Positions 2,930-28,991 of a DNA stretch of 39,555 bases are shown piece after piece (positions within the stretch are counted from its first letter, which is position 1; every line of letters starts with the position of its first letter). This stretch comes from Synechococcus sp. SB0662_bin_14 (lineage in GTDB: Bacteria > Cyanobacteriota > Cyanobacteriia > PCC-6307 > Cyanobiaceae). The notes beneath the pieces were generated by a model, which was given only the letters and a program-made list of their open reading frames with translations, was not told where the DNA came from and ran no database searches. The stretch lies in the NCBI GenBank assembly GCA_009840445.1, contig VXNS01000006.1, forward strand, positions 1-39,555, written 5' to 3'. The position numbers and the translations under genes were made by a program.

Positions 2930-5900
2930 TCAAACATTCAACTTGCGCTTCACCATGACCATCGAGAAAGCTTCCAGCCGGTCCCCCTCCCGCCAATCCG
3001 TGAAACGACTCACGCCCACGCCACACTCGTAACCGGCATTCACCTCCTTCACCCCGTCCTTGATGCGACGGAGAGAGTCCAGATCCCCTGCATGGACAAC
3101 CTGACTGCCCCGGTGTACCCGTAACCGACAGTTGCGCTGCAGCTTGCCTTCCGTGACGTAGCACCCGGCAACGGCGCCGTTGCCAACGGAGAAGACGGCG
3201 CGCACCTCTGCCCAGCCCAGGGGCTCTTCCACCAACTCCGGTTCCAGGAGGCCCTCCATGGCTCCCTGGATATCCTCCAGAAGTTTGTAGATAACGTCAT
3301 AGTTGCGCACATCCACGGATGCGGCTTCTGCGGCTCGTCGGGCGCCACTGGCCATGGAGGTGTTAAAGCCAATGACCACGGCGCCGGAGGCTGTGGCCAA
3401 GTCAATGTCGGTTTCCGTGACCTCGCCAGGGGACGACAACAAGACACGAATCTGCACCTCTTCCTGGGAAAGCTGTTCGAGGGACCCCAGGATGGCCTCC
3501 AGAGACCCCTGAACATCGGTCTTGAGAATCAGGTTGAGTTCCTTGAGCTCACCCTCGGCGGCTTGATCCGACAGGGCCGTAAGGCTGACGCGACGACTGG
3601 CCATTTGCTGGGCCAACCGGGCTGCACGGGCATCACTGACCCTGTCACTGACCACGGCGCGGGCAGCCTTCTCGTCTTCGAACACCTCAAAGGCATCTCC
3701 CGCCGTGGGCACTTCACTGAAGCCAAGGGCCTCCACGGCAGCAGAGGGGAGAGCCTCCACGAGCCGCTCACCCCGGTCGTTGACCATGGCCCGAATCTTG
3801 CCCAGAACCGGACCGGCGGCGATCACGTCACCAAGTCGCAGGGTGCCGTTCTGCACCAGCAGGGTGGCCACCGGACCCTTGGCCTTGTCCAAGTGGGCCT
3901 CCACCACGGTTCCTCGGGCCAACCGCTCGGGATTGGCCTGTAGATCCTCCACATCGCTCACCAGGAGAATCATCTCCAGCAGCTTGTCGATGTTCTGGCC
4001 CTTGAGTGCGCTGACAGGGACCATGACCGTGTCACCTCCCCACTCTTCACTCGTCAAATCGTGGTCAGCCAGCTCCTGGCGCACCCGATCCGGATTGGCC
4101 CCCTCCTTGTCCATCTTGTTGATGGCCACCACAATCGGCACCTCCGCAGCGCGGGCATGGCTGATGGCTTCAATGGTTTGTGGGCGAACCCCGTCATCGG
4201 CGGCAACCACCAGCACGGCGATGTCGGTCACCTTGGTGCCCCGGGCCCGCATGGCTGTGAAGGCTTCGTGACCGGGCGTGTCCAGGAAGGTGATGAGGGC
4301 AGGCTCCTCCCCATGGACCACCTCCACTTGGTAAGCGCCAATGTGCTGGGTGATGCCACCCGCCTCTCCCGCCGCTACACGGGTGCTGCGAATGGCGTCC
4401 AGCAGACTGGTCTTGCCATGGTCAACATGGCCCATCACCGTCACCACGGGCGGACGTCGGCTGAGGTTTTCAAGGTCCTCCTCCTCAATCATGGCAACCG
4501 TCTTCTTGGCGGCGGCCTCGACGTCATCTTCCACAACGGGCACCCCAAACTCCTCGGCCACCTTCTCGATGGCAGGCAGGTCCAGGGATTGGGTCACCGT
4601 TGCCGAGATGCCTTTGAAGAACAAGGACTTGATGATGTCCGAACTGTTGACGCCAAGGGCCTCCGCCAACTCCTGGACCGTCAAGTTGCCTTCCGGAACC
4701 ACAAGCATTTCAGGGCGCTGCTGCTTGGCCTCCCGCGCTTGGCGCAGTTCCATGGCCCGCCGCCGTTGCCGTTGCCGGGCGGTCTCCTTGGACTTCTTGC
4801 GCCGTTTTGCCTTGATTGCAGGTTGCTCCGTCGCACCCTGGGGCTTGCCGGAAGGACGGGCCAGGGAGGCGGAAAGCACCGCGGCAGTCCCTTCGCTGGC
4901 AAAGCCTTCGCCAGCATTCACGTCTTCGTCATGGATGCCAATGATGTGAACCTTGGTGCGCTGCTTGCTGGCGCCGCCGCCATGCCGTAACTGCTCCAGA
5001 CGCGCCGAATCATCCCAATCCTGCCGCCTGGCCCGCCCGCCAGCGCCAGTACGGGCGCGGCCGCCGCCAGGGGCGCCGCTGCGGGGCGGACCAGGGCGGC
5101 GAGGTGGCGTGGGGGAGGCCGTCGTGGTTTTGGGCTCGGCCTTGGGACGGGCCACGGTCGTGGTGGATCCCGAGGTGGCCTCCTTGCCCAGAACTTCACT
5201 TGGGGCCGCGGGACGGCGCACCCCTGGTGGCAGCCCTCCCTGAAAGCGCTCGGACCCCGACTCTCCCGGACGGCTAACCCCCGGAGGCCCACCTGAGGTG
5301 CGCCGCAGAGGACGACCAACAAGCTCTGCCGAGCGGGGGGCAATGGGCTTGGCGCGACGCTCGCCAGTGGCGGGGCTGGGGCGCACGGCTGAGGCGCCAC
5401 TGGCGGCGCCAGAACGCTGAAGCTGCCCCATGACTTCCGGACGATTATTCTGCTGTGGTGGTGCATCCACCCCTCCGGCGCGCTGTGGTGTGCCGGGGTC
5501 GCTTACCCTGGCGATGGGGCGGCGCGCCACGATTTGGGGTTGCCGTACAGGTGGCTGTGCCTGGGGTGTGGATTGGGTGGATCGGGCGCCGTCAGGGCGT
5601 CCCGCTAACGCTGATGACCGGGACCGCGGCATCCCGGACGCCACCACGGAGCGTGGCGGCCTTGCGCTGGGGCGCCGGGGTGGTTGATCCACTGCCTTTG
5701 CCGGCAGCGGGGGACGACCGGGTCCCTCAGGGGCGGCAGACAGGACTGGTTTGGCTGGGGGGACCGATGCTGACTTGCTCCCTGGTCGAGCACGTTGATC
5801 TTTTACCGGCTTCCTGGGGCGTGGTGTGGAGGTTGCGGATAGGGGGCTGGTGGGACCGTCCGACTTGCGAACAGGTTTCTCGGCCACCGGGGATTTGGCG

Positions 5901-7045
5901 GCCGCAAGCTTAGGCGGCGCCATGAGCTGGGGCGGCTGCTTGACCGGCTTCTTGGCGGCCGGCTGCTTGCTCGCCTTGTCCGCTAGACGTGCATCCTTGG
6001 AACGGAGGTTGCTGGCTACGGAGGATTGTCGGGTCACCTTGGCCTGCTTGGCGGCGGCCGCAGACTCCTTGAACGGCTTATCGGCTAACGGCTTACCGGA
6101 AACGGATGATGACCTGACCACCACGGGACTTGCCTTTGTCCTGGACGGCTTGCCCCCCACGGCAACTGCGGCTCCGGGAGCCTTGGGCGCCGTGGGCTGG
6201 ACCACGGTGGGCCGCACTGGCTTGGGCTTCTGGGACGGACGTGATGCAGCGGATGGTTGTGTCTTCGTCTTCACCGCCGCAGAGGCCGCCTTTGCCGACG
6301 ACTTGTCCTTGGTGGCAGCCGCAACTCCAGGAGCCTTTGGTGCAATGGGCTGGACCACGGTGGGCCGCACCAGTTTGGGCTTCCGGGACGGCTTGGGTTC
6401 CATGGATGGCGGCTTCGCCATCGCAAGACCTGTATTGACATTGGTTGTCGTCCCCTTGCCAGTGGTCTTGCCTGTGGTGGGCTGGTCCGCTGTTTTGGCC
6501 TTGAGTTTGACCACATTGGGGCGCCGGGGACCTTTGTTGGCCGTGGCGGTGCTGTTGGTCGCGCTAGCGTTGGCCAGCCTGACAGGGTCGGGAGCCGGCT
6601 CCCTGGCTGGTGGGGAGGGCTTCCTATGAAGTGTCCGGGTGGCCGATGGTGTCGCGCCAGGGGTGAGTTTACGTGGAGCGGTGGGTCGTGGTGGCGTGGG
6701 TCGTGCGGTCGGCACTGCCTTGGATTTCAGCCGGACCGTGAACGCTTTGCCGGTGGGTTTGGCCTGCTGCCCGGGGGCTGGTTGAGCTGGATCAGGTTTG
6801 TCTGATCCAACAGCCTTCTCCTTTTGGGCGGCCTTGATTTTGTAGGCGGTCGCCAAGTCTTCAGTCAAGTGACCTTCAGCAACAAGGTGGCCAATGATGG
6901 TTTGGGCCTGCCCTTCACTGATGGAGCTGCTGTGGCTCTTGACGGGGATGGAACGCGTCTCCGCAGCATCAAAAACAATGCGCCATGACGGAAGGCCAAG
7001 GTCGCGTGAAAGCTCATTGATACGGACTCTGCCGCTGTTGGTCAT
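2930..7045 (-). CDS. infB: Translation initiation factor IF-2, with enlarged N-terminal region
   Basis: GTPase that delivers initiator tRNA to the 30S subunit and promotes subunit joining. The start is set at ATG 7045 because the conserved cyanobacterial N-terminus ([18 protein letters not shown]) begins there and GGAG lies 5 bases upstream; the longer open frame to 7168 is rejected. The protein is 1371 residues, against roughly 1000-1130 in relatives. About 780 N-terminal residues are Lys/Pro/Ala/Arg-rich low complexity, with an internal duplication. The IF-2N fold follows (near 785-835), then the G domain from about residue 870 ([22 protein letters not shown]), then domains II-IV to the end. 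It is the last gene of rimP-nusA-ylxR-infB, 249 bases after ylxR. Confidence 0.95.
6165..6405 (-). repeat. 51-residue in-frame duplication in the IF-2 N-terminal region
   Basis: Two near-identical coding blocks lie 153 bases (51 codons) apart. They encode [19 protein letters not shown] and [19 protein letters not shown], each followed by an Ala/Lys/Ser-rich spacer. The spacing keeps the reading frame. This looks like a tandem duplication in a disordered linker and partly explains the long protein. Confidence 0.7.
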
Positions 7046-7294
7046 GCGTACTCCAAACGAGCGATGAGGGATTCCCCATCGAGCCCTCCTGATGCAAGGG
7101 CCGTTACCATCTTGCCCTAGGGAAGGCGAGTACTCCTTGAGAATCTCACCAAAACCTTGGCCCCACAAGACTTCCCTTCAGAAAAGCTTGCAGACGAGGA
7201 CCACTTGGGCCTACAGGACAGAAGCCGGGGGGCTTGTGGTATCGGCCTGGAGCGTGAGCGTAAGACCAAACTGCTGCGGCACTTGAGAGCGGTG

Positions 7295-15019: not shown

Positions 15020-15291
15020 TGCTGGCCCCAAACACCATGACCCACTATAGACTAGGCTTTCGGATAGGACTTGGTGATGCCCTGTGGCAAACCGAGTCGG
15101 AATTACCCCCCACAAAAGGCATTTGTCCAAGGTTGAGGAACTTCACCACAGGTCTTGAGCGGCTCAGCAGGGTCGAGCGTCATCCCCTCTGAAGGACTGT
15201 CTGCCTCTTGCTGTTGCCGTGCATGAAGCCCTCTCCCGATCAACTTCCCACCCAACCGTCTTTGTCATTTCTTCAACAGGGACACCACCCT
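15020..15291 (+). promoter_or_regulatory. Leader and probable promoter region of rpoB-rpoC1-rpoC2
   Basis: This 272-base gap separates the TatD gene from rpoB and is by far the longest gap in the rpsT-rlmN run, so a promoter for the polymerase genes is expected here. A TATAGA hexamer at 15046-15051 resembles a -10 box, but I find no good -35 partner. An in-frame ATG-containing extension of rpoB can be read from 15208, but its sequence is not RpoB-like. Confidence 0.35.
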
Positions 15292-18579
<3,288 letters not shown>

Positions 18580-18665
18580 CCCCCACACGGTGACCGGAAG
18601 GCGCTGCTGCCTCCCTGAACCACTCTTCTCCCCTCCTCTTCCTCTGACCCTGACTCTTAAAGGCC

Positions 18666-21506
18666 ATGTCCACCAGCAACATCCGCTCCGAAAACCACTT
18701 TGACTACGTCAGGATTACCCTGGCCTCTCCGGAACGGATCCGTTCCTGGGGGCAACGCACCCTGCCCAACGGCCATGTGGTTGGTGAAGTCACAAAACCG
18801 GAAACCATTAACTACCGTACATTGAAGCCGGAAATGGACGGTCTTTTCTGCGAAAAAATCTTTGGTCCTGCTAAGGACTGGGAATGCCATTGTGGCAAAT
18901 ACAAGCGGGTGCGCCACCGGGGAATCGTTTGCGAGCGCTGTGGCGTTGAGGTGACTGAAAACCGGGTGCGGCGCCATCGCATGGGTTATATCAAGCTAGC
19001 GGCACCTGTATCCCATGTATGGTATTTGAAAGGGATTCCAAGTTACGTGGCGATTATTTTAGATATGCCATTGCGAGATGTGGAGCAAATTGTCTATTTC
19101 AATTGCTATGTTGTTTTAACAAAAAATCAACAATATAATAAAATGATTGATCAATTTTTCAACATGGCCACCTATTCTATTACCTTGGGTGAATTGCCGA
19201 GCTCTGATGTAACCGTTAATCTTGATGTCAGAAGTAATAGCTCTTCCACTGCAAAAATTAATGCAGATAAATTAGTCTTCAATGCAACTAACTGGAATGT
19301 GCCACAAAAAGTAGAAATCATGGGAAATAACAATAAAGATAAGCAGCGCGATTTTACTGTAAGTTACTCAATCTCTAGTCAAGATAATAGATATAGAAGC
19401 GAATATGCTTTAGTCAATGAAGTCAGTATTAACGCAACTGATGAAGATGTTAAGAATGTTGTGATTACTCCTGGTGTGACTCCGACTGAGCCAGGAACAT
19501 ACAACATCAGACTGAGTGCTGTCCCTGTCGCTGATGTTCAAGTTACTGCTATCCCCATCATCGATGGAGAGTCACGCTATCCGATTGGCAAAAAAAATCT
19601 AAATCTGACAGGTGAAAATCTTAGCACAAAAACAAACAAAGAACTCAAGAATCTTTGTAAACAGTATGGCCTAAAAGGATCCGGGACGAAAGCCGAACTT
19701 TGTCAAAGACTTGAACAAGTTAACGGAACAGGCCAATTCGTGGAGGATCAGCCACCGACACTGGAGGGATCTGATCTAGTCGTCAATCCCCAGACACTGG
19801 TCTTTACGCCTGACAATTGGGACAGCCCTCAAAAGGTCGTTATTAAAAATATCAACAAGAACGATCACCAAGCTCATGTGGATATTGGTTATTCTATTGT
19901 TAGTAATAATGTCCAATACAATGGTAAGGTAAACATCGAAACCAATGAAGATGACAGCATTGAAGCAATGATTATTTCATTGGAAAATAATAAAACACCA
20001 GTTACGCTTATGGATTCAGAGAAATATAAACTAGAATACAAGCAACTTCTGACCGAAGATGAATGGCTTGAAATTGAGGATTTTATTTACACAGTAGAAT
20101 TTGATATTGACCAGGAACCAGAAGTTGACATCGGAGCTGAAGCGTTAAAACAGCTCTTGAAGGATTTGGACTTACAAGCTATTGCAGAAGAAATTCGTGA
20201 AGACGTGATAAAGAGTAAAGGTCAAAAGAGAGCTAGACTAATTAAACGCTTGAGGGTAATTGATAACTTTATCGCTACCAAATCCCGACCAGAGTGGATG
20301 ATTCTGGATAACTTACCGGTGATTCCACCAGACCTGCGTCCAATGGTGCAGTTGGATGGTGGACGTTTCGCTACCAGTGATCTGAATGACCTTTATCGAC
20401 GTGTAATTAATCGCAATAATCGCCTGGCTAGATTACAGGAAATCCTTGCCCCTGAGATCATTATCCGAAATGAAAAGCGGATGCTTCAGGAAGCCGTCGA
20501 TGCCTTGATTGACAATGGACGACGGGGCCGTGTGGTTGTGGGCGCTAATAATCGTGCCTTCAAGTCTCTCAGTGATATTATTGAAGGCAAGCAAGGCCGC
20601 TTTCGTCAGAATCTTTTAGGGAAGCGAGTTGATTACTCTGGACGTTCCGTGATTGTGGTGGGTCCTAGTCTCAAGATCCATCAATGTGGTTTGCCCAAAG
20701 AGATGGCCATTGAGCTATTTCAGCCTTTTGTGATTCATCGCTTAATTCGACAAAATATTGTCAATAACATTAAATCAGCTAAGAAAATGATTCAACGAAA
20801 CGATGATGAGGTGATGCTTGTTCTTCAGGAAGTGATTGATGGACATCCCATTTTATTAAACCGCGCTCCCACTCTACACCGTTTAGGTATCCAGGCTTTT
20901 GAGCCCAAGCTGGTGGATGGGCGTGCGATTCAACTGCACCCTCTGGTTTGCCCGGCCTACAATGCGGACTTCGACGGAGATCAAATGGCCGTCCACGTGC
21001 CTCTGGCTCTGGAGGCTCAAGCTGAAGCCCGACTGTTAATGCTGGCCAGCAACAACGTGCTTTCCCCTGCCACAGGTACCCCCATCATCACCCCATCCCA
21101 GGACATGGTTCTGGGTGCATACTACCTGACCGCCGAGTCTCCTGACGCCACCAAAAAACCACCCTACGGCAGCCATCGCCACACCTATGCCTCCTTGGCA
21201 GACGTGAGCAACGCCTATGGCCAAGGACTCCTTAACCTGCATGATTGGGTGTGGGTCCGTTTCCATGGGGACGTGGACAATCCTGACGAAGCGGATCGTC
21301 CTCGCCGTGTGGAGAAATTTAAGGACGGCACCCGACTTGAGCACTGGAAGTTTCGCTATGACCGTTTGGACAGTGGCGGCCGCCTGTTCAGTCGCATGGT
21401 CTTGACCACAGTGGGGCGTGTTGTTTTGAACTACGCTATTAATACGGTGATCAGTGCCCATGACGTCAAACCTCAACCACCTGATTCCGCCTTCACTGCC
21501 GCTTAA
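18666..21506 (+). CDS. rpoC1: RNA polymerase subunit gamma (RpoC1) with a ~300-residue SAP/beta-sandwich insert
   Basis: N-terminal half of beta-prime, separate in cyanobacteria. It has 946 residues, against about 630 usually. Conserved parts are intact: zinc ribbon Cys74, Cys76, Cys89, Cys92; the block [15 protein letters not shown] up to residue 151; [15 protein letters not shown] from about 459; [19 protein letters not shown]; and the catalytic NADFDGDQ at about 766-773 with three Mg-binding Asp. Residues 152-452 replace a stretch of only a few residues in normal RpoC1 and carry two beta-sandwich repeats and a SAP motif. Removing the insert gives about 645 residues, the expected size. The start ATG is preceded by AAAGG. 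The insert and the next 900 bases are unusually AT-rich. Confidence 0.96.
19119..20021 (+). other. In-frame insert in rpoC1: two adhesin-like beta-sandwich repeats around a SAP motif
   Basis: This encodes residues 152-452. Repeat 1 contains [10 protein letters not shown] then [17 protein letters not shown]; repeat 2 contains [20 protein letters not shown] then [18 protein letters not shown]. The pattern (TYxVxLxxxPxxDVxV, then LxFxxxNWxxPQxV) is that of Calx-beta-like repeats in large bacterial surface proteins. The SAP motif with linkers sits inside repeat 2, between its two halves. The flanking RpoC1 blocks join cleanly with no frameshift. There are no intein-type splice residues. Base composition is clearly AT-rich. 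Confidence 0.8.
19617..19715 (+). other. SAP DNA-binding motif in RpoC1
   Basis: Residues 318-350 read [18 protein letters not shown] followed by [14 protein letters not shown]. This matches the helix-turn-helix SAP pattern, with hydrophobic residues in helix 1, the Gly-Leu turn, and xxGTKAELxxRL in helix 2. SAP motifs bind DNA in eukaryotic and bacterial proteins. It most resembles the SAP units of RpoC2 in this window. Confidence 0.75.
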
Positions 21507-21572
21507 CGCTCCATCCTTCCACCACCCATCCACCTCCATTCTTCCTGTTCCTCACGTCTCCCTCTACCACCC

Positions 21573-24500
21573 ATGACTCTTAGCAACTCTCAGTCCACGA
21601 CTTCTTTGGCCAGTTCAACGACTGCTATGTTGAGTTCGTCGACCCCACTGACACAAAAAGGAGCCCACGAGAGGAAGTCTCGCCTTGTCTTTCGTAACCG
21701 GGTTATTGACAAGAAGGGGCTACGCAATCTCATTGCTTGGGCGTACAAGGAGTTTGGTACTTCGGCCACAACGGCTATTGCTGACGAGTTGAAGGACTTG
21801 GGATTTCACTATGCGACTCAAGCGGCTGTTTCCATCTCCGTAGATGATCTGAGAATCCCTGAAGAGAAGAAAGAGCTTCTCAACGAAGCTGAGGAGGAGA
21901 TTACCCGTACAGAAGAGCGTTATCGACTGGGGGAAATTACAGAAGTGGAGCGGCATACAAAAGTAATTGATACGTGGACAGAAACAAATGAGCGTCTTGT
22001 TGAAGCTGTCAAGAAAACGTTTACGCAACATGATCCCCTTAACTCTGTCTGGATGATGGCCAACTCTGGCGCCAGGGGCAATATGTCCCAGGTGCGGCAG
22101 TTGGTGGGAATGCGTGGACTGATGGCGAATCCTCAAGGAGAGATTATTGATCTGCCGATTCGGACAAACTTTCGTGAAGGTCTGACAGTCACAGAATACG
22201 TTATCTCTTCCTATGGGGCGCGTAAAGGTCTGGTGGATACAGCTCTACGTACGGCTGACTCCGGCTACCTGACCCGCCGCTTGGTGGATGTTGCTCAGGA
22301 CATGATTGTCCGTGATGAAGATTGTGGTACTCAGCGAGGTATCATTATCAATGCTGATGAAAAAGGACATTATCAAAGCAAATTAGTGGGACGCTTGACA
22401 TCTGAAGATATTAAACAATTAGTTAAAGTAACGCACGTGATAATCCTTGGCGGTACGTTGCACTTCTGTAGTGATAAAGCGGTTTTGAAGCGCTTTGACA
22501 AGGGTGTTTTGGTGCGGCCAGGGGACGAGTTGCAGGGAGAACTGAAGAGTTCATCACTGGCTCTCGTACAAGCTGTCAAAACTCGGGAAGGATCCGCATT
22601 GCTTGTAAGCGAGCTTCCTCAAAAAACGTGGAAAATTGAACCTGGGACTTCCCTTAAGATTGCTGATGGCACTTGGGTTGAGGCGGAAACCATGCTGACT
22701 GAAAAAATCGTTAGCCCTAATAAAGGCCTTGTCGTTGTGAGTGAGAACAACGGAATCTCATATGTTAGTTTACTTGAGGGCTCTTTACATGTTTGTGAAG
22801 ACAAAAAAACCTTAAAACGATTTGAAAATGGTTCATTAGCTAAACCAAAAGATACTCCGATGAAAAATATAGTAGTGAATCGATACACATACGTACAAGC
22901 TATTGTATCTGATCAAGATAGTGCTTTGTTTCTTAGCGAATTTGCCTCTCAAAATGATTACACTATCAATACAAATACTCTTCTTGTTAAAAAAAATCAG
23001 TGGGTTGAGCGCGACACTAAACTTTCTAATGATGTATTTAGTATAATCACAGGACTTGTTAGTACCTATCCAATTAAAAAAGAGAAAGAAGAACTTCTAT
23101 GGCCTCGCAACACAGAAATTAGTTTGGAGATCAGTAAGCAGCTTGAAAAACGTCAGGTCAAAGCAGTGAAGGTCCGCTCGCCCCTCACCTGCGAGACGCC
23201 AAAATCCGTCTGCCGCCGTTGCTATGGCTGGGCTTTGGCCCACAACAAGCTGGTTGATCTGGGGGAAGCTGTAGGCATTGTGGCTGCCCAGTCCATTGGT
23301 GAGCCTGGTACCCAACTGACCATGCGTACCTTCCATACCGGTGGCGTGAGCACGGCGGAAACAGGTACTGTACGCTCTACCTTGGCGGGTATCGTCAGCC
23401 TTGGTGACCAGGCTCGGGTACGCCCCTACCGCACGTCCCATGGCGTTAATGCTTACATTGCGGAGACAGATTTCCCGTTGACCGTCAAATCTGCCTCCGG
23501 AGAAAAGCAAGCTGTTTCTATTACTTCCGGCTCTGTTTTGTTTGCCGAAAACGGCAGCGCCGTCAAGCGTGACGATGTGCTGGGTCAGATTGCAGGTGGC
23601 AACGTGAAGAAGAGTGTTGAGAAAGCAACTAAGGATGTCATCTGTGACTTGGCTGGCCAGGTCAAGTACGACAAGGAGATTCAACCCCGAGAAGCCACGG
23701 ATCGCCAAGGCAACGTTACCGTCAAGGCACAGAGGCTAGGTCAGCTCTGGGTACTTAGTGGGGATGTTTATAATCTACCTCCCAACGCCGAGCCAGTCGT
23801 TGAGGCTGGTTGTGCAGTGAAAGCTGGGGATGTGCTTGCAGAAAGTTGCTTGCGTAGCGAGTATGGTGGTGATGTGCGCTTGCGGGATGCCACAGGTGAT
23901 TCACGTGAAGTCCAGATTGTTACAGCTAAACTCACCATCAAGGATCTCAAGCTAGTCCATGAAAGTAGTCATGTTGGCGAGCTATGGAACTTGGAAACTG
24001 AAGACGGTTTAAGCTATCGCCTACATACTAATCCAGGTAGTAAAATTAGCCACGGTGAGGTTATTGCTGAACTGAGCGATGAGCGCTTCAGAACCCAAAG
24101 CGGCGGCCTGGTAAAATTCAGCCCAGGTTTGAGCATCAAAAAAGCCCGTTCGGCAAAGCATGGCTTTGAGTTATCTCATGGGGGAACTTTATTGTGGATT
24201 CCTCAAGAAACCCATGAAATTAACAAAGATATTTCTTTATTAATGGTTAAAAATTATCAAAGAATTGAAGCTGGAACTGAAGTGGTTAAAGATATCTTTA
24301 GTCAAATCTCAGGAATTGTAACTGTTGTTCAAAAGAATGATATTTTAAGGGAAATCACTGTACGCAATGGCAGTGTGCATTACTGTGATGTAAATAATTC
24401 TAATCACCGAGAAGCTCTTGAGCGCTTCTCGGAAGAGGGTATGCTTGTTAACCCTGGAGATGTACTGATCGAAGATGAGCTGATTGCTGAGAACATCTAC

Positions 24501-27500
24501 TATGTGGAATCTGTGATGGATCCATCTGAGGGTAGTCCTTTTCTTCTCCTGCGTCCCGTTGAGGAATTTGCCATTCCAGACGATGCTTATGTTCCTGCCA
24601 CTACCCAAGTCAAGCAGCCCCAAGGACCGTCCATGGCCTTGAAAGCACAGCAGCGTTTGATGTTTAAGGATGGTGAACTGGTTAAGTCTGTGGAACCGGT
24701 GGAGCTTCTGCGCACTCAAGTTATTTTGGAAACCTTCGACACAACGCCGCAGATGACCGTTGATGTGGAAGTGGTTCCCGGCCGCACCAAGAGGAGTCAA
24801 CGTCTCAGCATGGTTATTTTGGAAAGCCTCTTGGTGCGCCGTGATACCCTGTCTGATGCAACTCATGGCTCCACCCATACGGAATTGAAAATAGAAGATG
24901 GAAAGCGTGTCAAGCCAGGCCAGGTGATCGCCACAACTCAGATTCTCTGTAAAGAAGACGGTGTGGTACAAATTCCGCCACTTGAGGCACGCATTAATAA
25001 ACCTGGAGATACTACACTTGAGAAAGATACTGTCATTGAACTTTCTAAAATAAAACAATTGAATGGAGAAATAAAGAGTAAAAATAAAAAACCAGCTGAA
25101 TTTGAAGCTGAGCCAGTCCGAAGATTAATTGTAGAACGAGAGTCAGATACCTGCAACATTGTAGTTTCAAACGAAGCCTCCATGGATGTGAAACCTGGAG
25201 AACGACTTGTTCAAGGAGATACTTTGGTGAAGCATCAGGAGGGCTTGTCTGACTGCCAAGTAAAAATACGTAGCGGTAATGTACACTTTTGCCAAGACAA
25301 GCATGCTCACGAGCCTTTCCGCAAAGGCCAACTGGTCTACCCATGGCAGCCTATCACTGAAGACCTTCGGACAGATGCCTTAGCATGTGTCGAGGCTGTC
25401 GAGACCCCGGAAGGCCCTGCCTTGTTAATCAGTCCCTTTGATCAGCAACAGACCTGTCCCATTCACGCAAGTACCCAACAGGTTCACCGTCATGGCCAGT
25501 GGGTGGACAAGAGTACGGAACTGGTGGCTACAAGCAGTCGAGTCTGTGGTCTTGCCAAAGTCACTAAAAGCCCCCACGATCAGACGGTGAGTATTCGTAG
25601 TGGCCAGTTAGTACCTTGCACGAATAAAAATACCTTGGAGTGTTTCCAGCACGGCCAACTGGTGATAGAAGGCCGTGCTTTGAGTGAAGATGTCATATTG
25701 GACACATTGACGTTCGTGGAATCTGTTAATGGACCAGAAGGAGCAATGTTGCTGTTGAGCCCTGTTCAGGAATTTACCGTTCCACAGGAATTCTATTCAC
25801 TCAATCAGGATACCTCTCTTCTTGTTGTCAATGGCCAGTGGATTGAGGCTGGTACTGAAATCATGCCGAATATCTATAGTAAAATATCTGGCGTTGTAAT
25901 GATTGATTATAATGAACAAGAGCTAATAATTTGCCATGGTACTCTACAAATATGTCAAGAACATTTGGTTCTAGATCACTTCAGAGAAGGTTTACTTTCT
26001 GACATGAACGATAAAATGATTCCTGAAAATCTATCTGAAAATTCAGAAAAACCACAAAACTTCTCTGCAATCTATGTTCAATCTGTTGATACTCCAGAAG
26101 GTTCTGCTCTTTTGCTTAGTCCAGTATATGCTAAAACGTTTAATGTTCCAGATGCCGTTTATGTGTTTAACTTGGACGTGAATTTGTTAATTACTGAAAA
26201 GCAATGGGTAGAGTCTGGAACACGCCTGACCGAAGCCCCTATTACCAGCCACAGAGAAGGTGTGACAGTTCTTACAGATAATAGCATCACTATTCTTTCT
26301 GGAGAACAGCATCTCTGTGATAATCAAAATATCTTGAAACGCTTTCGTAAAGGTGTTTTGATGAATCCAGGTATCGCCTTATTGGATGACTTGATTACAG
26401 ATGCGTTGACCTATGTTCAGTCTGTGGATACCCCGCAAGGCTCTGCTCTGTTGATCAGTCCCCTCTCGCAAGATGTTCACCAGATTAACCGTACCAAAAC
26501 CCCGCTTCAGGTTCAACAAGGGCATTATGTCCAAAGTGGCGATATGCTGGCTTCAGGTTTGAAGGCGGAACGATCCGGTGTGGTGGTGGTGGGGGAGGTT
26601 CATGCCATCTCCCCCACCAGTGGTGTTGTGGAAGCCATTCGTCCCGGTTGGCTGCGTCTCCGCGTTGGCCGCCCGTATATGATTTCCCCGGAATCCATTC
26701 TTCATGTTCGAGATGGTGGTCTGGTGCAGCGCGGGGATGCCCTTGCTCTGCTGGTGTTTGAGCGCGCCAAAACAGGTGATATTGTGCAAGGCCTGCCCCG
26801 CATTGAAGAATTGCTTGAAGCCCGTCGGCCTCGTGATGCTTCTGTGCTGTGTCAGAGTTCGGGGCACGTGAAACTGGAGATTGGTGAGGATGAAGAAGTG
26901 TTGGTCAAGGTTATTGAAGATCAACAAGGAGATGGCTCCTATGATCTCCCTGCTGACCACAACATGTTTGGAGGAGCGACTAAAGTAAGTAAGCCGGCCC
27001 CATGGAATGAAGATCAATATAAGACAGCACTCCTGGGTGTGGGTGAATTGAGTACAATGATGGTCAAGGCCCTGCAGGACCTTTGCCGTCGCCATGGTCT
27101 GAAGGGCTACACTCAGTGGAAGAAGCCAGAGCTGTGCCGTAAGCTGGAGCGGGCTGGCGTCGCGGCGCCACCCCCAGCCTTGCAGGACCTCAGGGCTGAG
27201 CAATTGATTGAGCTTGTGGAGAAGCTGGATCCTTCCAAAGCGCAGTGTGCCAAGCTGCTTAAGGGCGACTTCAACCAGAAAACACTTGCTGAGTTGGAAG
27301 AACTGGCCAAACAACACCAACTCAAGACCATTACTTATCATAAGGCTACAGAGAAAAAGGCTGGTCTTGTTCAGCGCTTGAAAGACGCGAATGTCTCCAT
27401 GCCAACCCCTTCTCTCAACACACAGAGTAAAAAAGATCTTATTACCTTTATTAGTAAGATTGATCCTTCTAAAGAGAAACGCGCAGCCTTTCTGGAGGGT

Positions 27501-28991
27501 AGCTTTGCCGATGAGTCGTCTCGACAGCTCAAGCAATATTGCAAGGTCCATGGACTGAAGGCTTATTCCAAGCTCAGTAAGCCAGCGCTTTGCGCGGCCC
27601 TGGAGAAGGCCGACGTGCAGGCGCCGCCCCGTCCCTTGGAGAAGTTGGATCAGCCGCAACTCGCACAACTTGCCGGCAAGCTCGACCCCACAGGAGAAAA
27701 AGCTGCAACTTTGCTTCAACAAAGTCTTAAGCAGCAACCGATCAAGGTGCTGCAAAAGCTGTGCAAGGAGCATGGCCTGAAATCGTCCCTGCAGCAGGGG
27801 CAGTCTGCCAAAAAGGCTGAGCTCTGCCAAAAGCTGAACCAGGCTGGTATTCTTCCCCCACCCCAGTCCCTGGATCAACTCAAGAAAGGTGATCTTATTG
27901 CGTTGATCCTGCAGATGGAGGCTCCAACGTCCACTGAGGCGCCTGCCTTGGCTCAGCCCATGATGACAGAAGATGATCGCGTTCACGTGTACGATATTCC
28001 CTTGGGACGCAATGTTATGGTTTCGGATGGTCACCAAGTCCAGGCGGGAAGTGCTTTAACTGACGGACCCATTAATCCCCACGACCTCCTGGATACTCAC
28101 TTCAAGGATCTGCTGCGCCGCCGTCACTCCATAATGGAGGCTGCCCAAGGAGCCATTGCCACTGTGCAACAGCGCTTGGTGGACGAGGTGCAGTCGGTGT
28201 ACCGGTCCCAGGGTGTCACCATTGACAACAAACATATTGAGGTGATCGTGCGCCAAATGACCAGCAAGGTGCGCATTGAAGATGCCGGGGACACCACGTT
28301 TCTGCCTGGAGAGTTGGTTGACCTGCCCCAGGTGGCCAAAACCAATGCAGCGATTGCCGAGACTGGTGGCATGCAAGCTCAATTCTCTCCTATGCTCTTG
28401 GGCATCACTAAAGCTTCCCTCAATACCGATAGCTTTATTTCCGCTGCCAGCTTCCAGGAGACCACGCGAGTGTTGACAGAAGCAGCAATTGAGGGCAAAA
28501 GCGATCTGCTCCGTGGCCTGAAGGAGAACGTGATCATTGGCCGTTTGATTCCTGCCGGTACAGGCTTTGACGGCTTTGACGATCAACTGAGGGACGAGGT
28601 CGGCCCCCATCCTGATATTCTTGATGATGATCAAACCGGCTACCGCCGTCTATCCAGCTTGCGACCGGACTATACGATAGAGATCCCCGTTCCCAGCCAT
28701 TCTGCTCCCGTTCTGGACGATCCATCCGACGAGCAGTTGCGCAAAGCCCGTCGCCGGATTGACGACACCAGTGGCAGCGCTGCCGCCTTGACACGTCCGG
28801 GTGAGCACCACGACCAGGGGACCACAATGTTCCCGTCAGAGATCCCTCCCGAGAAACGGGACGACAGGACGGAAGAGCCTGAGCAAAACTGGCAGAACCC
28901 GGAGGAGGACGAGGACCTCATCCACGACAGCACACGGGCGGAAGACCTGGACACGGAGCCTCAGCCCATGGATGAAGGGTTTGAACTTTAA
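21573..28991 (+). CDS. rpoC2: RNA polymerase beta-prime (RpoC2) with three large expansions, 2472 residues
   Basis: C-terminal half of beta-prime, about 1100 residues longer than the usual ~1370. The core is intact: FRNRVIDKKGLRNLIAWAY, MMANSGARGNMSQVRQL, zinc cysteines Cys251, Cys540, Cys547 and Cys550, trigger helices QLTMRTFHTGG (581-591) and AKTGDIVQGLPRIEE (1732-1746), and GITKASLNTDSFISAASFQE near 2277-2296. Expansions: residues 281-507 between the first two zinc cysteines; SI3 at about 593-1731 against about 650 usually; and 1783-2132 holding four SAP-like units in the jaw. An acidic tail follows residue 2373. It starts 66 bases after rpoC1. The frame is open throughout, which argues against decay. 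Confidence 0.96.
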   Translation: MTLSNSQSTTSLASSTTAMLSSSTPLTQKGAHERKSRLVFRNRVIDKKGLRNLIAWAYKEFGTSATTAIADELKDLGFHYATQAAVSISVDDLRIPEEKKELLNEAEEEITRTEERYRLGEITEVERHTKVIDTWTETNERLVEAVKKTFTQHDPLNSVWMMANSGARGNMSQVRQLVGMRGLMANPQGEIIDLPIRTNFREGLTVTEYVISSYGARKGLVDTALRTADSGYLTRRLVDVAQDMIVRDEDCGTQRGIIINADEKGHYQSKLVGRLTSEDIKQLVKVTHVIILGGTLHFCSDKAVLKRFDKGVLVRPGDELQGELKSSSLALVQAVKTREGSALLVSELPQKTWKIEPGTSLKIADGTWVEAETMLTEKIVSPNKGLVVVSENNGISYVSLLEGSLHVCEDKKTLKRFENGSLAKPKDTPMKNIVVNRYTYVQAIVSDQDSALFLSEFASQNDYTINTNTLLVKKNQWVERDTKLSNDVFSIITGLVSTYPIKKEKEELLWPRNTEISLEISKQLEKRQVKAVKVRSPLTCETPKSVCRRCYGWALAHNKLVDLGEAVGIVAAQSIGEPGTQLTMRTFHTGGVSTAETGTVRSTLAGIVSLGDQARVRPYRTSHGVNAYIAETDFPLTVKSASGEKQAVSITSGSVLFAENGSAVKRDDVLGQIAGGNVKKSVEKATKDVICDLAGQVKYDKEIQPREATDRQGNVTVKAQRLGQLWVLSGDVYNLPPNAEPVVEAGCAVKAGDVLAESCLRSEYGGDVRLRDATGDSREVQIVTAKLTIKDLKLVHESSHVGELWNLETEDGLSYRLHTNPGSKISHGEVIAELSDERFRTQSGGLVKFSPGLSIKKARSAKHGFELSHGGTLLWIPQETHEINKDISLLMVKNYQRIEAGTEVVKDIFSQISGIVTVVQKNDILREITVRNGSVHYCDVNNSNHREALERFSEEGMLVNPGDVLIEDELIAENIYYVESVMDPSEGSPFLLLRPVEEFAIPDDAYVPATTQVKQPQGPSMALKAQQRLMFKDGELVKSVEPVELLRTQVILETFDTTPQMTVDVEVVPGRTKRSQRLSMVILESLLVRRDTLSDATHGSTHTELKIEDGKRVKPGQVIATTQILCKEDGVVQIPPLEARINKPGDTTLEKDTVIELSKIKQLNGEIKSKNKKPAEFEAEPVRRLIVERESDTCNIVVSNEASMDVKPGERLVQGDTLVKHQEGLSDCQVKIRSGNVHFCQDKHAHEPFRKGQLVYPWQPITEDLRTDALACVEAVETPEGPALLISPFDQQQTCPIHASTQQVHRHGQWVDKSTELVATSSRVCGLAKVTKSPHDQTVSIRSGQLVPCTNKNTLECFQHGQLVIEGRALSEDVILDTLTFVESVNGPEGAMLLLSPVQEFTVPQEFYSLNQDTSLLVVNGQWIEAGTEIMPNIYSKISGVVMIDYNEQELIICHGTLQICQEHLVLDHFREGLLSDMNDKMIPENLSENSEKPQNFSAIYVQSVDTPEGSALLLSPVYAKTFNVPDAVYVFNLDVNLLITEKQWVESGTRLTEAPITSHREGVTVLTDNSITILSGEQHLCDNQNILKRFRKGVLMNPGIALLDDLITDALTYVQSVDTPQGSALLISPLSQDVHQINRTKTPLQVQQGHYVQSGDMLASGLKAERSGVVVVGEVHAISPTSGVVEAIRPGWLRLRVGRPYMISPESILHVRDGGLVQRGDALALLVFERAKTGDIVQGLPRIEELLEARRPRDASVLCQSSGHVKLEIGEDEEVLVKVIEDQQGDGSYDLPADHNMFGGATKVSKPAPWNEDQYKTALLGVGELSTMMVKALQDLCRRHGLKGYTQWKKPELCRKLERAGVAAPPPALQDLRAEQLIELVEKLDPSKAQCAKLLKGDFNQKTLAELEELAKQHQLKTITYHKATEKKAGLVQRLKDANVSMPTPSLNTQSKKDLITFISKIDPSKEKRAAFLEGSFADESSRQLKQYCKVHGLKAYSKLSKPALCAALEKADVQAPPRPLEKLDQPQLAQLAGKLDPTGEKAATLLQQSLKQQPIKVLQKLCKEHGLKSSLQQGQSAKKAELCQKLNQAGILPPPQSLDQLKKGDLIALILQMEAPTSTEAPALAQPMMTEDDRVHVYDIPLGRNVMVSDGHQVQAGSALTDGPINPHDLLDTHFKDLLRRRHSIMEAAQGAIATVQQRLVDEVQSVYRSQGVTIDNKHIEVIVRQMTSKVRIEDAGDTTFLPGELVDLPQVAKTNAAIAETGGMQAQFSPMLLGITKASLNTDSFISAASFQETTRVLTEAAIEGKSDLLRGLKENVIIGRLIPAGTGFDGFDDQLRDEVGPHPDILDDDQTGYRRLSSLRPDYTIEIPVPSHSAPVLDDPSDEQLRKARRRIDDTSGSAAALTRPGEHHDQGTTMFPSEIPPEKRDDRTEEPEQNWQNPEEDEDLIHDSTRAEDLDTEPQPMDEGFEL
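22413..23093 (+). repeat. Insert between zinc-site cysteines of RpoC2: two SI3-like modules
   Basis: This encodes residues 281-507. Two tandem modules can be aligned by eye: LHFCSDKAVLKRFDKGVL...LVQAVKTREGSALLVSE and LHVCEDKKTLKRFENGSL...YVQAIVSDQDSALFLSE, each followed by a beta segment with GTWVEAETM or NQWVERDTK. The same module occurs in tandem in SI3 (for example LCDNQNILKRFRKGVL). In normal RpoC2 this position has only a short loop. The flanks SEDI and LWPRNTEIS are conserved. The DNA is AT-rich. Confidence 0.8.
23349..26765 (+). other. Enlarged SI3 insertion in the RpoC2 trigger loop
   Basis: SI3 lies between the two trigger-loop helices in cyanobacterial polymerase. It is made of sandwich-barrel hybrid motifs and, from cryo-EM work, contacts sigma to form an arch. 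Here it runs from about residue 593 to 1731, roughly 1140 residues, some 490 more than I expect. The first part (593-870) and the last part (HAISPTSGVVEAIRPGWLRL onward) look like ordinary SI3; the middle is repetitive. Confidence 0.8.
25278..26591 (+). repeat. Four tandem ~110-residue modules within SI3 of RpoC2
   Basis: Residues about 1236-1673 hold four successive units, starting at VHFCQDK, LVPCTNK, LQICQEH and QHLCDNQ. The shared plan is xCxxxxxLxxFxxGxL, then YVQSVDTPEGSALLLSP, then a short linker, GQWVEAGTE and a beta segment ending in SIxSG. A degenerate fifth copy lies at about 868-1010 (VHYCDVNNSNHREALERF). The units differ enough that the duplications are not recent. Confidence 0.8.
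26919..27968 (+). repeat. Four SAP-like units in tandem inserted in the RpoC2 jaw region
   Basis: Residues 1783-2132 interrupt the normally continuous segment between EVLVKVIE and YDIPLGRNVMVSDG. Four units have cores LCRRHGLKGY, LAKQHQLKTI, YCKVHGLKAY and LCKEHGLKSS, centred near 1840, 1914, 1992 and 2066, so the spacing is 74-78 residues. Each SAP core ends in ELCRKLERAGV-like sequence. A Pro-rich linker and a second helical pair (DLIxLIxKIDPSKEKxAxxL) follow. Unit 2 is the most divergent. The DNA is less AT-rich than the rpoC1 insert. Confidence 0.85.
28689..28988 (+). other. Acidic low-complexity C-terminal tail of RpoC2
   Basis: After the conserved end (LRPDYTIE), about 100 residues follow. 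VLDDPSDEQLRKARRR is typical of marine relatives; the last 65 or so residues, with PEEDEDLIHD and a final PMDEGFEL, are highly acidic and longer than I expect. Probably disordered. Confidence 0.6.

Follow-up and report, generated by a model that had tools for sequence, protein, structure and literature searches.

A tandem array of four SAP/Rho_N-like units in the RpoC2 jaw of Synechococcus sp. SB0662_bin_14 and its relatives, a candidate nucleic-acid grip beside downstream DNA

We describe a 350-residue insert in the jaw of RpoC2 (beta-prime-2) of Synechococcus sp. SB0662_bin_14, carrying four tandem units related to the SAP and Rho_N families, and propose, with about an even chance of being right, that this array serves as an auxiliary, flexibly tethered, sequence-nonspecific nucleic-acid grip beside the downstream DNA. 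The window, i.e. the whole stretch of DNA analysed (39,555 nucleotides of contig VXNS01000006.1), encodes rpoB, rpoC1 and rpoC2 of a cyanobacterium according to the ORF translations and to Pfam and NCBIfam. Few proteins are as conserved as the catalytic subunits of RNA polymerase, and the genus, as far as sampled, has added about 300 aa to beta-prime-1 and about 1,070 aa to beta-prime-2, in the form of recognisable modules (SAP-like, SI3-head-like and surface-protein-type repeats). The jaw array is one of several genus-specific inserts in beta-prime, a point omitted from the original prediction. The genome of the window, 99.6% complete, gave one match for RpoB, one full RpoC1 and one match for the RpoC2 C-terminal part, and therefore the cell seems to depend on this polymerase. 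The genes and the parts of the jaw region are as follows.

15208..18579, forward strand: rpoB, without a comparable insert; one genome match
18666..21506, forward strand: rpoC1 (beta-prime-1), 946 aa; NCBIfam NF002729, 1227.3 bits
21573..28991, forward strand: rpoC2 (beta-prime-2), 2472 aa without internal stop; NCBIfam TIGR02388 (rpoC2_cyan), 1962.9 bits
26607..26918, forward strand: conserved RpoC2 core preceding the jaw insert (SI3 end, second half of the trigger-loop region, jaw start)
26919..27968, forward strand: whole jaw insert, RpoC2 residues 1783-2132, 350 aa; present in 0/5 aligned outgroups
26919..27044, forward strand: N-terminal linker of the jaw insert with a conserved PW-ED stretch; low model confidence
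27048..27164, forward strand: SAP-like unit 1, net charge +6; the best conserved unit (mean identity 0.86)
27165..27269, forward strand: spacer half-unit 1, net charge -1
27270..27395, forward strand: SAP-like unit 2, degenerate, without Pfam match, net charge +3
27396..27503, forward strand: spacer half-unit 2, net charge +2
27504..27620, forward strand: SAP-like unit 3, net charge +3
27621..27725, forward strand: spacer half-unit 3, net charge 0
27726..27854, forward strand: SAP-like unit 4, net charge +6
27855..27968, forward strand: half-unit 4 and C-terminal linker of the jaw insert, net charge -2
27969..28988, forward strand: remainder of the jaw and conserved C-terminal part of RpoC2 (alignment)

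The original prediction of four SAP-like cores spaced by 74-78 residues was borne out by the translation, in which the cores LCRRHGLKGY, LAKQHQLKTI, YCKVHGLKAY and LCKEHGLKSS follow each other at spacings of 74, 78 and 74 residues. The residue-similarity autocorrelation of the array was highest at an offset of 152 (1.04), followed by 74 (0.07) and 78 (0.04), against a maximum of -0.16 for 300 shuffles, indicating a repeat above chance; because the similarity peaks at offset 152, units 3 and 4 look like a copy of units 1 and 2.

After Pfam profile search of the 350-aa array stretch, both Rho_N (PF07498; 34.4 bits, cut-off 24.9) and SAP (PF02037; 29.3 bits, cut-off 23.9) passed their cut-offs, and both families were matched at E <= 0.01 by 7/7 aligned genus members. 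For the full 2472-aa RpoC2, Rho_N still passed (28.1 bits) and SAP fell below its cut-off (12.8 bits), the SAP score on a 636-aa stretch containing the array being 23.9 bits, equal to the cut-off. When single units were searched alone with SAP, units 1, 3 and 4 scored 20.6, 15.8 and 18.4 bits (E-values 3.4e-4, 0.011 and 0.0017, respectively), all below the curated cut-off, while neither unit 2 nor any of the four spacers gave a SAP match; Rho_N on single units gave 14.0 and 16.1 bits or no match. Judged from sequence profiles, the array as a whole is well supported, whereas the units taken singly have weak support, and unit 2 has none. The kinship was also seen in a profile-profile comparison, in which an RpoC2-unit profile built from 37 sequences was paired with the SAP motif of RpoC1 (see below) with a probability of 98.6 and an E-value of 7.5e-16 for that single pair. 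Hidden SAP motifs in the spacer half-units were considered and rejected, the profile-comparison probabilities being 0.73 and 0.25 (of 100).

Canonical SAP domains carry a loop glycine shortly before helix 2 (PMC9399289, in excerpt). This glycine is found in unit 1 (HGLKGY), is missing in units 2 and 3 and is not conserved in unit 4, so that the array as a whole departs from the SAP domain at this position; for this reason we term units 2-4 SAP-like only, and the array, with units 2 and 3 lacking the canonical glycine, SAP/Rho_N-like. An AlphaFold2 model of 636 residues including the array (mean pLDDT 46.8) predicts the array to be all helical, with helix pairs where a helix-extended loop-helix fold would have them; between model residues 131 and 420 the pLDDT of 10-residue blocks is 60-77 except for one block of 40. 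The jaw core was modelled from an alignment with only six relatives and reached a block pLDDT of 23-46; with the core this poor, the model gives no position of the array relative to DNA. A structural second-look alignment ranked the Rho N-terminal domain first, against unit 1 (Z 6.0, rmsd 2.1 over 43 residues), and FAN1-DNA complexes second, fourth and fifth, matching units 1 and 3 (Z 5.3-5.7), with the tool's own warning that such values (Z near 6) can reflect a common arrangement when the matches are short and helical; the third rank was an unrelated match of the core, not of the array. The matched part of FAN1 is what we take to be its SAP domain. A PDB sequence search with the array gave nothing convincing (best E 0.14), and the best 50 Foldseek matches of the jaw model included RNA polymerases and none for the array. 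Taken together, the profile matches of the array stretch, the paired model helices and the basic charge resemble SAP (PF02037) and Rho_N (PF07498), both nucleic-acid binders of helix-extended loop-helix type, from which the array differs in consisting of four divergent units with spacers of about 35 residues inside an RNA polymerase subunit.

The original prediction placed the insert in the RpoC2 jaw, and an alignment that included E. coli RpoC and RpoC2 from four outgroups agrees, locating it at about D1181/G1182 of E. coli beta-prime, although the loop is variable and the precise junction shifts with where the gaps are placed. In Synechococcus elongatus beta-prime-2 (8syi chain Z), the site falls between residues 1039 and 1044. 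The insert is missing from 5/5 aligned outgroups; the flanks, taken in the original prediction to be adjacent in ordinary RpoC2, stand about 7 residues apart in the outgroups shown. The host RpoC2 sequence is intact on both sides, as in a lineage-specific insertion. The jaw is the same subunit place where dsDNA contact is known for E. coli: in the excerpted text of PMC3778932, the jaw fragment 1153-1213 binds dsDNA with T1169, R1174 and M1180 shifting on binding by NMR, deletion of 1149-1190 shortens the open-complex life, and pausing is suppressed by jaw deletion. By the alignment, the insert would start within one or two residues of the DNA-responsive M1180, subject to the same doubt over gap placement. 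The E. coli jaw itself has no insert at this place. For the array, DNA binding, the position at the duplex and the effects on open complex and pausing are inferred.

The grip is proposed to work as follows. Four SAP/Rho_N-like helix-loop-helix units would hang from the RpoC2 jaw loop on two flexible linkers, about 40 and about 25 residues long and both of low model confidence; each unit is probably weak, and four in a row beside the DNA-contacting face of the jaw would raise the local affinity for the downstream duplex. As removal of the E. coli jaw does the opposite, added jaw grip should stabilise open complexes and favour pausing, and the hold on DNA would increase in both open and elongation complexes. 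The clamp side may be where the SAP motif of the RpoC1 insert acts. The gripping of downstream DNA put forward in the original prediction is partly supported, being favoured by the SAP/Rho_N kinship, the jaw location, the lineage restriction within the genomes searched and the basic charge; a preference for double-stranded or AT-rich DNA is less certain, as some SAP domains, those of SDE2 and RAD18, prefer ssDNA (PMC9399289, in excerpt).

This last observation is one of several that point to another target, such as the ssDNA non-template strand, nascent RNA, the ribosome or another protein, by which the array would link the polymerase to another machine. Rho_N, the better-scoring family, is named after an RNA-binding termination factor, the low-confidence linkers on both sides suggest reach, and a stand-alone protein with two SAP/Rho_N motifs, which occurs in the genus, might be a partner. 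We regard this as unlikely, given that the array site lies beside the duplex-contacting face of the jaw and that NusG (9/10) and HU (10/10) are present in the genus genomes, so that neither looks replaced; a direct replacement of a lost NusG or HU by the array was not supported on the same counts. NusG was not found in genomes G007 (73% complete) and G010. In E. coli, the jaw around the insert site is bound by the phage T7 inhibitor Gp2, and the site is flanked by the Gp2 interface residues V1176 and Y1186-M1189 (PMC3778932, in excerpt), raising the idea that the array remodels a docking site for phage inhibitors. Such shielding is very improbable: no relative of the array was detected in viral_contigs or phages, which also led us to reject a phage origin of the array, and 350 aa with conserved basic parts exceed the needs of steric shielding.

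The array was found without stops in RpoC2 of 10/10 genus genomes searched (Candidatus Synechococcus spongiarum and MAGs), the other nine showing 64-86% identity to that of the window. Six named records (Candidatus Synechococcus spongiarum SP3, LMB bulk15M, isolate 1 and three MAGs) also contain it; they overlap with the ten genomes, at least some being the same contigs. An assembly artefact or chimera of RpoC2 was rejected on these grounds. Candidatus S. spongiarum are cyanobacterial symbionts of marine sponges, according to published abstracts. With the array as query, 13/40 genomes gave matches, the three from outside the genus being weak and located in short frames (82-199 aa). When the query was the RpoC2 C-terminal part, 374/400 family genomes matched and 26 did not; each of the 10 genus genomes gave a single match, and a second, ordinary rpoC2 copy was rejected for this reason. 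Genus RpoC2 frames not cut by a contig end (n=8) measure 2182-2636 aa, and the largest frame outside the genus was 1446 aa among the matches listed. An intein was rejected, as none of the families listed among the Pfam and NCBIfam matches is an intein family. In a phylum-wide scan, 9/292 genomes gave a SAP match at E <= 0.001, with the match in a polymerase-size frame only in the genome of the window and in frames of 140-467 aa in the others; this sample included one genus genome, whose RpoC2 array went unreported, and the scan would therefore miss equally divergent arrays.

In a 15-sequence tree built on shared RpoC2 columns, G001 is sister to the other nine genus genomes (support 0.998). The array of this earliest-branching member is 229 aa long, a single SAP-like unit preceding repeated spacer motifs, which counts against the grip; the array was therefore either built up after the G001 split or reduced in G001.

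The array has a pI of 9.53 and a net charge of +13, against a pI of 5.12 for the rest of RpoC2, and it is the SAP-like parts (+6, +3, +3, +6), not the spacers (-1, +2, 0, -2), that carry the basic charge. Across the ten genus genomes the pI of the array ranges from 7.85 to 9.59, the lowest value being that of G004, whose array is nearly neutral (net +2) and thus speaks against the grip. The median dN/dS of the array was 0.177 (36 usable of 45 pairs), which, as estimated from sequence comparison, points to purifying selection; within the array, unit 1 is the most constrained (0.117) and unit 2 the least (0.240; nine genomes). Similar values were obtained for insert C (0.172) and insert A (0.193) of RpoC2, described below, with a range of 0.15-0.25 over the inserts, as compared with 0.032-0.062 for four RpoC2 core blocks (0.032 for residues 1697-1782 and 0.042 for residues 2133-2340) and 0.151 for the short block 505-560. 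The weaker conservation of the array relative to the main core blocks (0.18 versus 0.03-0.06) is another point against the grip.

The remaining inserts of the two beta-prime subunits, together with the native module to which some of them are related, are as follows.

19119..20018, forward strand: genus-specific insert of RpoC1, 300 aa; Calx-beta/fn3-protein-like repeats on both sides of a SAP motif
19620..19718, forward strand: SAP motif of canonical type within the RpoC1 insert; 41.1 bits by genome scan and 42.5 bits on a 43-aa stretch (cut-off 23.9)
22419..23084, forward strand: insert A of RpoC2, residues 283-504, 222 aa; two SI3-head-like copies
24243..24608, forward strand: native SI3 module, RpoC2 residues 891-1012, overlapping the SI3-head (alignment to 8gzg chain Z)
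24987..25103, forward strand: insert B of RpoC2, residues 1139-1177, 39 aa; G001 is without it
25239..26606, forward strand: insert C of RpoC2, residues 1223-1678, 456 aa; C-terminal part of SI3, with four SI3-head-like copies

Inserts A, B and C are, like the array, absent from all 5 outgroups. Eight genomes have insert A in full (222-228 aa), and in G006 and G007 it is cut by the contig; insert C is shorter in G001 (296 aa) and longer in G009 (603 aa) than in the other eight genomes (456 aa). A blastp search of RpoC2 with the native SI3 module detected six more copies, at residues 289-373 and 369-469 in insert A (E 5e-9 and 4e-6) and at 1229-1291, 1309-1408, 1417-1531 and 1539-1633 in insert C (E-values 6e-13, 5e-11, 3e-10 and 1.5e-5 among them), all E-values, from 1.5e-5 to 6.5e-13 overall, being for a one-protein database. 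The native module overlaps the SI3-head of Syn6803, for which the limits 619-729 were taken from the excerpted PMC10120043; the same source describes the SI3-head as contacting sigma and stabilising the open complex.

The 300-aa insert of RpoC1 lies in the loop at E. coli 148-153. Its SAP motif scores higher than the jaw array and stands well over the cut-off of 23.9 bits, also in the full RpoC1 (34.7 bits); it is over cut-off in 9/10 genus genomes, namely those whose RpoC1 was examined (all but G007). On either side of the motif, the insert is similar to repeats found in a large protein that the same genome encodes (blastp E 4.9e-14 and 4e-9), other large frames giving E-values of 2e-5 to 1e-3. 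Pfam found Calx-beta and fn3 in another part of that large protein and neither of them in the RpoC1 insert, so that the Calx-beta/fn3-protein link rests on similarity to repeats outside those domains. A model of the insert had a mean pLDDT of 39.7, the SAP hairpin being best (62-67), and a Foldseek search with the RpoC1 model gave two matches at E <= 0.001, both RNA polymerases, and no reliable one covering the insert. The RpoC1 frame of G006 is interrupted within the insert, 3' of the SAP motif, through error or decay, which again counts against the grip, though it concerns RpoC1 and not the array.

Such diversity of unrelated insert types in beta-prime (surface-protein-type repeats with SAP, SI3-head-like copies, the SAP-like array) is what would be expected if the inserts were neutral or nearly neutral decoration, i.e. 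modules of the same genome pasted into tolerant surface loops of beta-prime under the weak selection of a symbiont and with little harm. The dN/dS of the inserts, which exceeds the values of the main core blocks by a factor of about 3-6, the variation in size (the short array and insert C and the missing insert B of G001, the long insert C of G009) and the broken RpoC1 frame of G006 agree with this account. We nevertheless judge it improbable, though worth weighing, since insert A is present in 8/8 fully covering genomes and insert C and the array in 10/10, the array stays stop-free throughout at an insert dN/dS of 0.15-0.25, and the basic charge is concentrated in the SAP-like parts. In addition, the control proteins RpoA, GyrA/ParC and RpoB are without such growth, their frames being of sizes also seen in relatives, with the exception of contig-cut frames and a single RpoB frame of 1254 in G007 (RpoB was surveyed in nine genus genomes).

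Returning to the grip, a broader scheme may be tentatively drawn in which the jaw SAP-like modules and the RpoC1 SAP motif form a DNA clasp holding the template from two sides, while the SI3-head-like copies strengthen the seal of the cleft, resulting in unusually stable open complexes and strong pausing by an enzyme that a sponge symbiont has assembled out of modules already in its genome; we consider this combination doubtful.

Lineage-specific inserts in beta-prime are of a known kind (PMC11515920, in excerpt). The array shares with such insertions, including cyanobacterial SI3 (PMC10120043, PMC10802570, likewise in excerpt), the placing of a module in a beta-prime loop with host flanks kept, and growth by module copying is paralleled by the extra SI3-head-like copies found here. 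The insert folds described in the accessible part of PMC11515920 are barrel-sandwich (HABAS), BEAN and sLC; the jaw array is instead predicted to be all helical and SAP-like, and its model, of moderate confidence, speaks against a HABAS or BEAN fold. The other parallel, reached by another route, is PAP1/pTAC3 of the plant plastid RNA polymerase, by which a SAP domain is attached to a cyanobacterial-type polymerase (PMC9456514, in excerpt); PAP1, which has PPR repeats, is encoded in the nucleus as a protein of its own, whereas the SAP-like units of the genus are built into the polymerase subunits. A literature search, with most subscription journals outside it, gave no description of a bacterial RNA polymerase with SAP-like modules built into it and no occurrence of 'Synechococcus spongiarum' together with 'rpoC2'. 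The gene-reading enzyme of this genus may thus have a built-in extra grip on its template, and with such a grip added at the jaw, tuning of open-complex lifetime and pausing becomes testable.

Two minor observations concern the locus and the transcription apparatus. The GC content of rpoC1 and rpoC2 is below that of the flanks, core parts included, and lower GC is therefore not a mark of the inserts alone. The principal sigma factor carries 257-353 residues N-terminal to region 1.2, with a net charge of +26 to +34, in the ten genus genomes surveyed, and 147 residues with a net charge of +16 in G010, the frames having been taken stop to stop and some being contig-cut.

The additional sequence in the two beta-prime subunits of the genus is not confined to SAP-like motifs, and the following features of these subunits were considered.

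Window 22419-23084 and 25239-26606: RpoC2 inserts with SI3-head-like copies
Window 19119-20018: RpoC1 insert, with repeats flanking a canonical SAP motif on both sides
G006:C5:16500-20534 (locus L124): RpoC1 of genome G006, split over two frames

RpoC2 was found to carry six additional copies resembling its SI3-head module, two in the insert preceding the trigger-loop region and four in the insert within the C-terminal part of SI3, and these extra copies are genus-specific among the sequences compared. The repeats of the RpoC1 insert are similar to repeats in a large protein with Calx-beta and fn3 domains, encoded by a frame at locus L137 on contig C49 of this genome (E 4.9e-14). In G006, the break of the RpoC1 frame is located within the genus-specific insert, downstream of the SAP motif, and may represent an error or decay. 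The GC content of rpoC1 and rpoC2, core parts included, is 45-50% (window 18001-28000), with GC3 of 0.45-0.57 in the genus genomes read, while rpoB (GC 58%, GC3 0.71) and the flanks (GC 59-67%) are richer.

Outside these subunits, three further proteins were noted.

G000:C14:24500-30718 (L110), minus strand: stand-alone SAP/Rho_N protein, 246-aa frame
L126-L135 (contig G000:C42 and relatives from the genus), with L136 (G010) for comparison: principal sigma factor
Window 2930-7168, minus strand: IF-2, a very long frame of 1412 aa

The stand-alone protein, which carries two SAP/Rho_N motifs and was found in most genomes of the genus (also L112-L117), may be related to the RpoC2 array or act as its partner. 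In the principal sigma factor of the genus, region 1.2 is preceded by a long N-terminal stretch of 257-353 residues with a net charge of +26 to +34, against 147 residues with net +16 in G010. For IF-2, the IF2_N domain begins at residue 828, so the protein either has an extended N-terminal part or starts at a codon more internal to the frame.
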